From: a virus
DNA: 64,000 bases
Virus record (IMG/VR): IMGVR_UViG_3300046002_007411
Span: 1-64,000 of that record
Reading direction: 5' to 3' (one strand)
The notes below the pieces were generated by a model that did not search any database, was not told the origin of the DNA, and saw only the letters and a list, made by a program, of their open reading frames with translations. The translations under genes and the position numbers were made by a program. Each line of letters opens with the position of its first letter. Position 1 is the stretch's first letter. Below are positions 27,472-28,146 of this stretch, in pieces.

Positions 27472-28146
27472 TTAACTCCAAAGCAAATTCATTTTGCCCT
27501 GCATGAACTCTCGAGCTGTTAGGGATTTTCCTGTGCGATGATCTTGTACAGCATCATCTTGAAATCGGATAGTGCGGATTTTATCTCCACGCTGTCCACT
27601 GCCAATCTGTATTTTGCGCTTGTGATTGTGTTTGTTGTTTTGGGACTCTGCGTGTTGATTTTCTATCAACACTTGCAGTGCCAGCAGCGCATTGCTGTAG
27701 CTATTTACCCGACTACGAGTTTGACTTGTGGTTGTAAAACCCGTGGGTATATGACGTAAACGGCAACTGTTGGCGTGTTTGTTTCTATGTTGGCCGCCAC
27801 AGCCTGTGCCGCTAAACCATGAGATTTCTATATCCTGGGGATTTATGATGTTTTTTTGATTATCGTGGTAATCAATAACAGCTACAGTCACGGTACTAGT
27901 ATGAACTCTACCGCGTCTTTCAGTGGGAGGAACACGTTGCATACGCAACCCCCCAGCTTCTTGATCTAGTTGTGAGAGATCTTGACCTTGAACAACAAAG
28001 CTATAGAACCCCGGTGCTTGCTGCTCGTGACTAACCAGTCAACCCAGGGCCAAGGCCAGCCGGCGATAAGCGCGGGCTAGGTCTTGAACAAATAACTTGC
28101 TATCTTCGCCGCCTTCAGCAGCACGTATCTCAATTATTTTTTTCAT
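27472..28146 (-). CDS. RF1-like peptide chain release factor lacking domain 1, with in-frame UGA
   Basis: A single continuous reading frame runs from ATG 28146 to 27472 and is interrupted only by one TGA (codon 36, 28039-28041, context GGT TGA CTG). Upstream of it the frame encodes IEIRAAEGGEDSKLFVQDL and downstream LRMQRVPPTERRGRVHTS, both matching RF1 in order and spacing. The PPT triplet is the RF1-type (UAA/UAG) codon-recognition motif. GTGCGGQHRNKH is the catalytic GGQ loop. Domain 1 is missing and the coding length is about two-thirds of RF1. The TGA falls where RF1 has W/R, so it may be read as Trp or by readthrough. Without that, translation from an internal ATG at 27948 would give 158 aa. 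It could also be a pseudogene or a sequencing error. Confidence 0.8.

Follow-up and report, generated by a model that had tools for sequence, protein, structure and literature searches.

The window analyzed here is a 64,000-base stretch of viral DNA, bases 1 to 64000 of contig G000 (111,707 bases; IMG/VR record IMGVR_UViG_3300046002_007411). It carries a gene for a short, RF1-type release factor (RF), by our reading a third one, the synthesis of which is probably gated by a premature UGA stop codon that selection has kept. Judged from sequence comparison, this UGA is genuine and conserved and marks a site of programmed recoding in a family of short RF1-type factors found in phages and bacteria. 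We favor this reading because the gate is conserved, the coding sequence is constrained on both sides of it, the family has an RNA element after it, gates have been rebuilt in relatives, and the codon-reading residues are of the RF1 type.

The RF gene and its internal UGA

The RF gene lies on the minus strand, and no gene was found when the same interval was read on the plus strand. Its frame has 225 codons, which gives 224 amino acids if the UGA is read as one residue, and its single internal stop is the TGA at codon 36, followed by C; the frame is otherwise unbroken and contains no frameshift. A preliminary description of this DNA had noticed RF1-homologous sequence in one frame on both sides of the TGA, and the minus-strand translation and Pfam matches to the product bear this out (PCRF at residues 4 to 88 and RF-1 at residues 100 to 204, with PF00472 scoring 62.9 bits versus a cutoff of 35). 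The PPT motif of the RF1 type and the intact GGQ motif that it had named are both present, and each is invariant in the aligned phage and bacterial members of the family. The features of the gene are as follows.

27472..28146, minus strand: RF gene, short (lacking domain 1) and RF1-type, from translation, Pfam, NCBIfam, and structure matches
28039..28146, minus strand: upstream mini-open reading frame (mini-ORF) of 35 codons that ends at the premature UGA, from translation, with a ratio of nonsynonymous to synonymous substitution rates (dN/dS) of 0.087
28039..28041, minus strand: premature stop UGA with C at position +4, aligned to the Trp of the RF1 "GW" in alignments
27472..28038, minus strand: same-frame continuation past the UGA, under purifying selection and with a terminal TAA, from translation and dN/dS
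27922..27930, minus strand: PPT codon-recognition motif
27790..27798, minus strand: GGQ catalytic motif

NCBIfam profiles placed the product nearest to RF1. Its score with TIGR00019, the prfA equivalog, was 178.5 bits, below the cutoff of 423.25, and it falls so far under this cutoff because domain 1 is missing and the match begins only at profile position 115 of 361. RF1 also gave the best sequence matches among solved structures, and the UGA aligned to the Trp of the "GW" pair in the first-listed RF1 structures. A predicted model of the product, with a mean predicted local distance difference test score of 82, matched ribosome-bound RF1 with a query template modeling score of up to 0.88. The kinship with PrfH that the preliminary description had suggested did not hold up, since the product scored 38.4 bits with TIGR03072 versus a cutoff of 166.65 and a quick maximum-likelihood tree search placed the family on one branch (Shimodaira-Hasegawa-like approximate likelihood ratio test value, 96) beside RF1 and away from both RF2 and PrfH.

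We gathered homologous phage loci from viral contigs in several scans, and after identical sequences were removed, there were 106 distinct homologues, the window gene included, which reach down to about 45% protein identity. The TGA is kept in 104 of these, 103 of them at exactly the equivalent of codon 36 and one (L190) two codons downstream, where a TGG Trp codon precedes the displaced TGA. The two exceptions are L015, which has CTT-TAG-C and a +1 shift, and L098, a megaphage gene with two internal TGAs at other places in a record that appears to use UGA as a sense codon. The nearest relative of the window gene (L005; 98% identical and from a different metagenome) has the identical TGA. At the remaining Trp positions of the phage RF genes, TGG is used (229 codons counted).

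TGA is a normal stop codon in this genome, as the preliminary description had argued. ORFs of at least 80 amino acids in G000 end in TAA 66 times, TGA 34 times, and TAG 13 times (34/113 for TGA), and the counts over related loci are 492, 268, and 63, respectively. Global UGA recoding of the window genome (code 4, UGA as Trp) is ruled out by this frequent use of TGA as a terminal stop. The RF gene is the sole TGA-ended ORF in G000 whose extension has coding character, and no other readthrough gene was found in the 111.7 kb of this contig. The strongest-looking TGA or TAG readthrough candidates in four jumbo relatives appeared, on reading, to be adjacent genes or noncoding overlaps.

Across relatives, dN/dS was 0.087 before the UGA, 0.236 over the next 37 codons, and 0.125 for the remainder of the gene. 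The raised value right after the UGA arises because synonymous change is halved there (proportion of synonymous differences, 0.276 versus 0.53 and 0.56 in the other two parts). The preliminary description had asked whether the TGA might be a sequencing error or the mark of a pseudogene, and the sequence comparisons exclude both. Although UGA-recoded megaphages carry relatives of the factor, an origin of the TGA in error, gene decay, or genome-wide reading of UGA as Trp is refuted to near certainty: more than 100 distinct genes share the TGA, the codons before and after it are under purifying selection, and TGA is a frequent normal stop.

Stop context and the downstream RNA element

The stop in the RF gene is thus conserved and in frame, the coding sequence before and after it is constrained, and a further mark of programmed readthrough, a weak context at position +4, is found as well. 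At position +4 of the UGA site, A prevails, G or C stands in some genes, and T is absent; T was found in 0 of 54 representatives, versus 87 of 259 ordinary terminal TGAs, with a P value of 2.5e-10 that is optimistic because the representatives are still related to one another.

In the family, codons +1 to +10 after the UGA, and then codons +26 to +31, show suppressed synonymous variation. When folding energies were compared with those of synonymous-codon shuffles, the lowest values were in windows around the UGA, with a mean z of about -1.6 over the 54 representatives. Elsewhere downstream, z was mostly 0 to -0.7, and a second, weaker region of about -0.9 lay near the start codon. The common form of the hairpin starts 6 nucleotides (nt) after the UGA and occupies codons +3 to +11, with the arms CGCC-U-GAUA and UAUC-UU-GGCG on either side of a loop. 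In 70 distinct sequences, 75% of the cells of this hairpin were paired, versus 67.3 ± 1.0% when partners were shuffled and at most 44.5% when the arms were slid, and 38 cells had changed on both sides, versus 16.1 ± 3.5 after shuffling; neither the pairing value nor the number of double changes was reached in any of 500 shuffles. In groups with insertions, such as those of L155 and L120, other hairpins form at nearly the same position. A version of the family hairpin with 9 uninterrupted base pairs was no better than shuffles. A longer stem between codons +4 to +6 and +26 to +31 was suggested by eye only, from the synonymous constraint. The window copy has the following candidate.

27990..28026, minus strand: candidate hairpin of the window copy, from folding, with its best stem 12 nt from the UGA and thus further from it than the family hairpin

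These comparisons suggest that the RNA element belongs to the family and that the subgroup of the window may have a weak form of it or none.

Gates in relatives and models of expression

In the phage locus L015, which the tree places as sister to the L014/L116/L117 group, the Trp site is TGG, and the CTT TAG C and +1 frame change lie three codons earlier. L015 is a single contig, and an indel error could mimic its shift if it is taken alone, but the bacterial cases argue against this. Among 84,980 species genomes of bacteria and archaea, a scan recovered 39 relatives. Three of them, in Thalassospira, a Sphingomonas metagenome-assembled genome (MAG), and an alphaproteobacterial MAG, carry the TGA of the phage type at the equivalent codon; as these three group with the phages, their contigs may come from phages or prophages. 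In most of the others, among them those of Nannocystis, Minicystis, Kofleriaceae, Achromobacter, and Novimethylophilus, the frame shifts by +1 at CTT TGA C (or G), and nearly all of these have a GGAGG- or GGGAG-like sequence a few bases upstream, as in prfB. The gate is CTT TAG C in four bacterial relatives (L217, L223, L229, and L235), and an in-frame TGA stands at a different place in L222 and L237. The tree contains several switches between gate types inside the family. The contrast that the preliminary description drew with prfB frameshifting therefore stands for the window gene, which stays in frame and has no CTT before its TGA, and fails for the bacterial members, which do use prfB-like +1 sites. 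The frameshift motif was also sought by pattern in 235 genomes from the phylum to which G015 belongs, but the pattern was too unspecific to be used.

Canonical RF1 and RF2 genes are also present in the five to seven bacterial genomes checked, so in bacterial members, such as those of Nannocystis, Kofleriaceae, and Achromobacter, the extra factor is a third one, and all six RF2 genes examined from those genomes retain the CTTTGAC motif. As a separate observation, megaphages L098 to L101 (LR745206, LR756504, LR756502, and LR756501; 635 to 735 kb), which have internal TGAs and are apparently UGA recoded, carry a related PPT factor without domain 1, and L225, binned as Bacteroidetes, groups with them.

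The codon-reading residues, numbered as in Thermus thermophilus RF1, are RF1-type at Q181, P184, and T186 in all aligned phage and bacterial members. T194 is invariant in the phage members, and the bacterial members have Ser (13 members) or Thr there. The family also has features of its own: PPT, in contrast to the PAT or PVT of canonical RF1 in the bacterial genomes examined; Asp in place of Glu119 of the loop that reads U1, in all aligned members; and a family-specific change from Thr to Glu before the GG pair at the codon-reading helix. Thr186 of the PxT motif discriminates against G at the second position of the stop codon. Our best guess from these RF1-type residues is that the factor is specific for UAA and UAG.

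We propose the following mechanism, in which the Trp insertion, the dependence on RF2 levels, the feedback through the UAA load, and the benefit to the phage are inferred. Host RF2 would terminate most ribosomes at the UGA of codon 36 and release a 35-residue peptide. When termination there is slow, a near-cognate tRNA, most likely tRNA-Trp because the site is Trp in RF1, would decode the UGA in frame and give the full factor, aided in most family members by the weak +4 base and the hairpin about 6 nt downstream. The full factor would add release at UAA and UAG that needs no domain 1/RF3 contact and would take UAA load off RF2, so that UGA termination would be restored and a negative-feedback loop closed. 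In bacterial members, a +1 frameshift like that of prfB, at CUU-UGA-C or CUU-UAG-C, would serve as this gate, and with the UAG gates the feedback would be direct. For the phage, the benefit may be extra release capacity at times when ribosomes are swamped by phage messages or host factors have run low or been blocked, and a ribosome rescue role of the factor is possible. The earlier suggestion that readthrough or near-cognate Trp insertion may gate expression, with RF2 as the competitor, gains support.

Several observations weigh against a gate of this kind. A factor specific for UAA and UAG cannot terminate at its own UGA, and the feedback would consequently be indirect. The window sequence does not fold more stably than its shuffles (z of -0.57), and RNAalifold, run on the alignment of 70 sequences, reported no consensus structure. 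L219 to L221, nearly identical genes on three contigs of a single Myxococcales MAG, were the sole members found to lack a premature stop, with Tyr in place of the Trp, and the gate is therefore not indispensable.

It is possible, at well under even chances, that phages and bacteria share a third RF class that would act at UGA as well as at UAA and UAG and would regulate itself through readthrough (phages, boosted by the hairpin) or slippage (bacteria) past its own premature stop. Self-regulation by UGA readthrough is a design that was proposed for RF2 before the RF2 gene was sequenced, and it has been reported as missing from bacteria. Direct autoregulation as in prfB, in which a broadened or omnipotent factor terminates at the UGA so that the codon senses the level of the factor itself, is unlikely. 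A reader of all stops would explain why most members have a UGA gate and others (L015, L217, L223, L229, and L235) a UAG gate despite the same PPT loop, and the Asp and Glu changes peculiar to the family would fit such a reader; the RF1-type residues common to all aligned members, Thr186 above all, speak against it. Equally doubtful is a simple attenuator, in which a leaky UGA would keep the amount of a factor that is toxic or costly constantly low, without any sensing. Any leaky stop would reduce output, but a weak ribosome-binding site would suffice for this without a UGA, an RNA element, or prfB-like sites across lineages.

Timing of expression by a phage-encoded suppressor tRNA is less likely still. 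Four jumbo relatives (G001, G004, G005, and G014, the genomes behind L014, L051, L070, and L125) have 32 to 47 tRNAs and a transfer-messenger RNA (tmRNA) each, among them tRNA-Trp(CCA) and tRNAs with the anticodon CUA, and one has a UCA tRNA-like gene; against this, the 111.7 kb of G000 contain no tRNA, and a UCA tRNA is absent in three of the four jumbo relatives examined. An opal suppressor tRNA was rejected as a general cause, only one odd UCA tRNA-like gene having been found. Termination at the UGA followed by an internal restart that makes a C-terminal product only is very improbable: the window has a TTG at 27948, but in 71 of 104 genes the stretch from the UGA to the PPT motif lacks any in-frame ATG or GTG, no start column is conserved, and this stretch is under purifying selection. 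Selenocysteine insertion can be set aside as more improbable yet, for the UGA and hairpin resemble a bacterial selenocysteine insertion sequence only superficially, the site aligns to Trp and not Cys, relatives have TGG, Tyr, or a displaced UGA there, and the hairpin geometry varies.

Genomic setting and comparison with known systems

The genes and RNA candidates near the RF gene include the following.

28192..29613, minus strand: Ro60-like gene (PHROG 850), directly upstream of the RF gene
29880..29983, minus strand: full-length, subthreshold YrlA Y-RNA-like candidate (31.7 bits, E value of 8.5e-5, gathering score of 69)
21661-22218 and 22215-23453, minus strand: adjacent phage-encoded initiation factor 3 (IF-3) and ClpX-like ATPase

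The YrlA-like RNA, the Ro60-like gene, and the RF gene follow one another on one strand, and L036, L044, L051, L069, L071, and L090 likewise have a Ro60-like gene upstream of the RF gene. The Ro60-like/Y RNA locus of the preliminary description was thus recovered in its protein part, and its RNA part is the subthreshold match; an Rfam search of the window at gathering scores gave no matches. Its parallel with RtcB loci fell away, as no RtcB was found in the 111.7-kb contig, which may be incomplete but includes both neighbors of the RF gene. The window also encodes a TilS-like protein, so called by its PP-loop domain. Exactly one RF-domain gene was present in each of 16 large records. This gene content (IF-3, the TilS-like and Ro60-like proteins, and the YrlA-like candidate) agrees with a phage that may manage translation.

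In the four jumbo relatives, ARAGORN called each tmRNA permuted. Each of these relatives has one or two normal-size, amber suppressor-like tRNAs with the CUA anticodon, and TAG is still an ordinary stop there. The UCA-anticodon tRNA-like gene is 72 nt long (L125:5307-5378, minus strand; also in the G014 contig); its acceptor stem is imperfect, and it may be an opal suppressor.

Phage genetic code switching also involves large phages, and UGA-recoded megaphages hold members of this RF family; in contrast, the window genome uses the standard code and has the internal stop in the RF gene only. Canonical RF1 (prfA) is the closest relative by sequence, fold, and codon-reading residues but has domain 1, PAT or PVT in the bacterial genomes examined, and no premature stop. 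PrfH (RFH) is likewise an extra factor with GGQ and without domain 1, but its reading residues differ and it is distant in the tree; no recoding of prfH is described in the passages of PMC1586002 consulted. Frameshifting in prfB is widespread, and TAG occurs in 0 of 8,164 prfB motifs (PMC12421855). The family resembles prfB in having an early premature stop in an RF gene, and its bacterial members share the Shine-Dalgarno-like sequence and CTT TGA C. It differs in being a short, extra copy of the RF1 type, in the 0-frame readthrough of its phage members, and in the UAG gates of some members.

The nearest precedent is in giant viruses of amoebae, where the class I RF genes of Mimivirus (R726) and Megavirus (mg280) need both UGA readthrough and a frameshift (PMC3521657). 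As in the window, a viral RF gene has an internal UGA, in the context UGA-C; there it is read through, probably as Trp, and a shifty second stop follows suit, with a stop identity at the frameshift that differs between the two viruses. Those factors belong to the eRF1 family, whereas the family described here is of the bacterial RF1 type, occurs in phages and bacteria, usually has a single recoding event in each gene, and shares a downstream hairpin across its members.

A 2016 review knew of no sequenced RF2 gene with an early in-frame UGA after which the frame continues, nor of an RF1/UAG counterpart, and cited only an amoeba giant virus as such a case (PMC5009743). We found no description of the present RF family in open-access papers, subscription papers and preprints being outside the scope of the search. 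The family supplies both missing designs, readthrough in phages and UAG in RF1-type genes with CTT TAG C, and with them a natural comparison of frameshift and readthrough gates inside one protein family. It points to phages that adjust termination during infection, and such genes are likely annotated as split, truncated, or absent.
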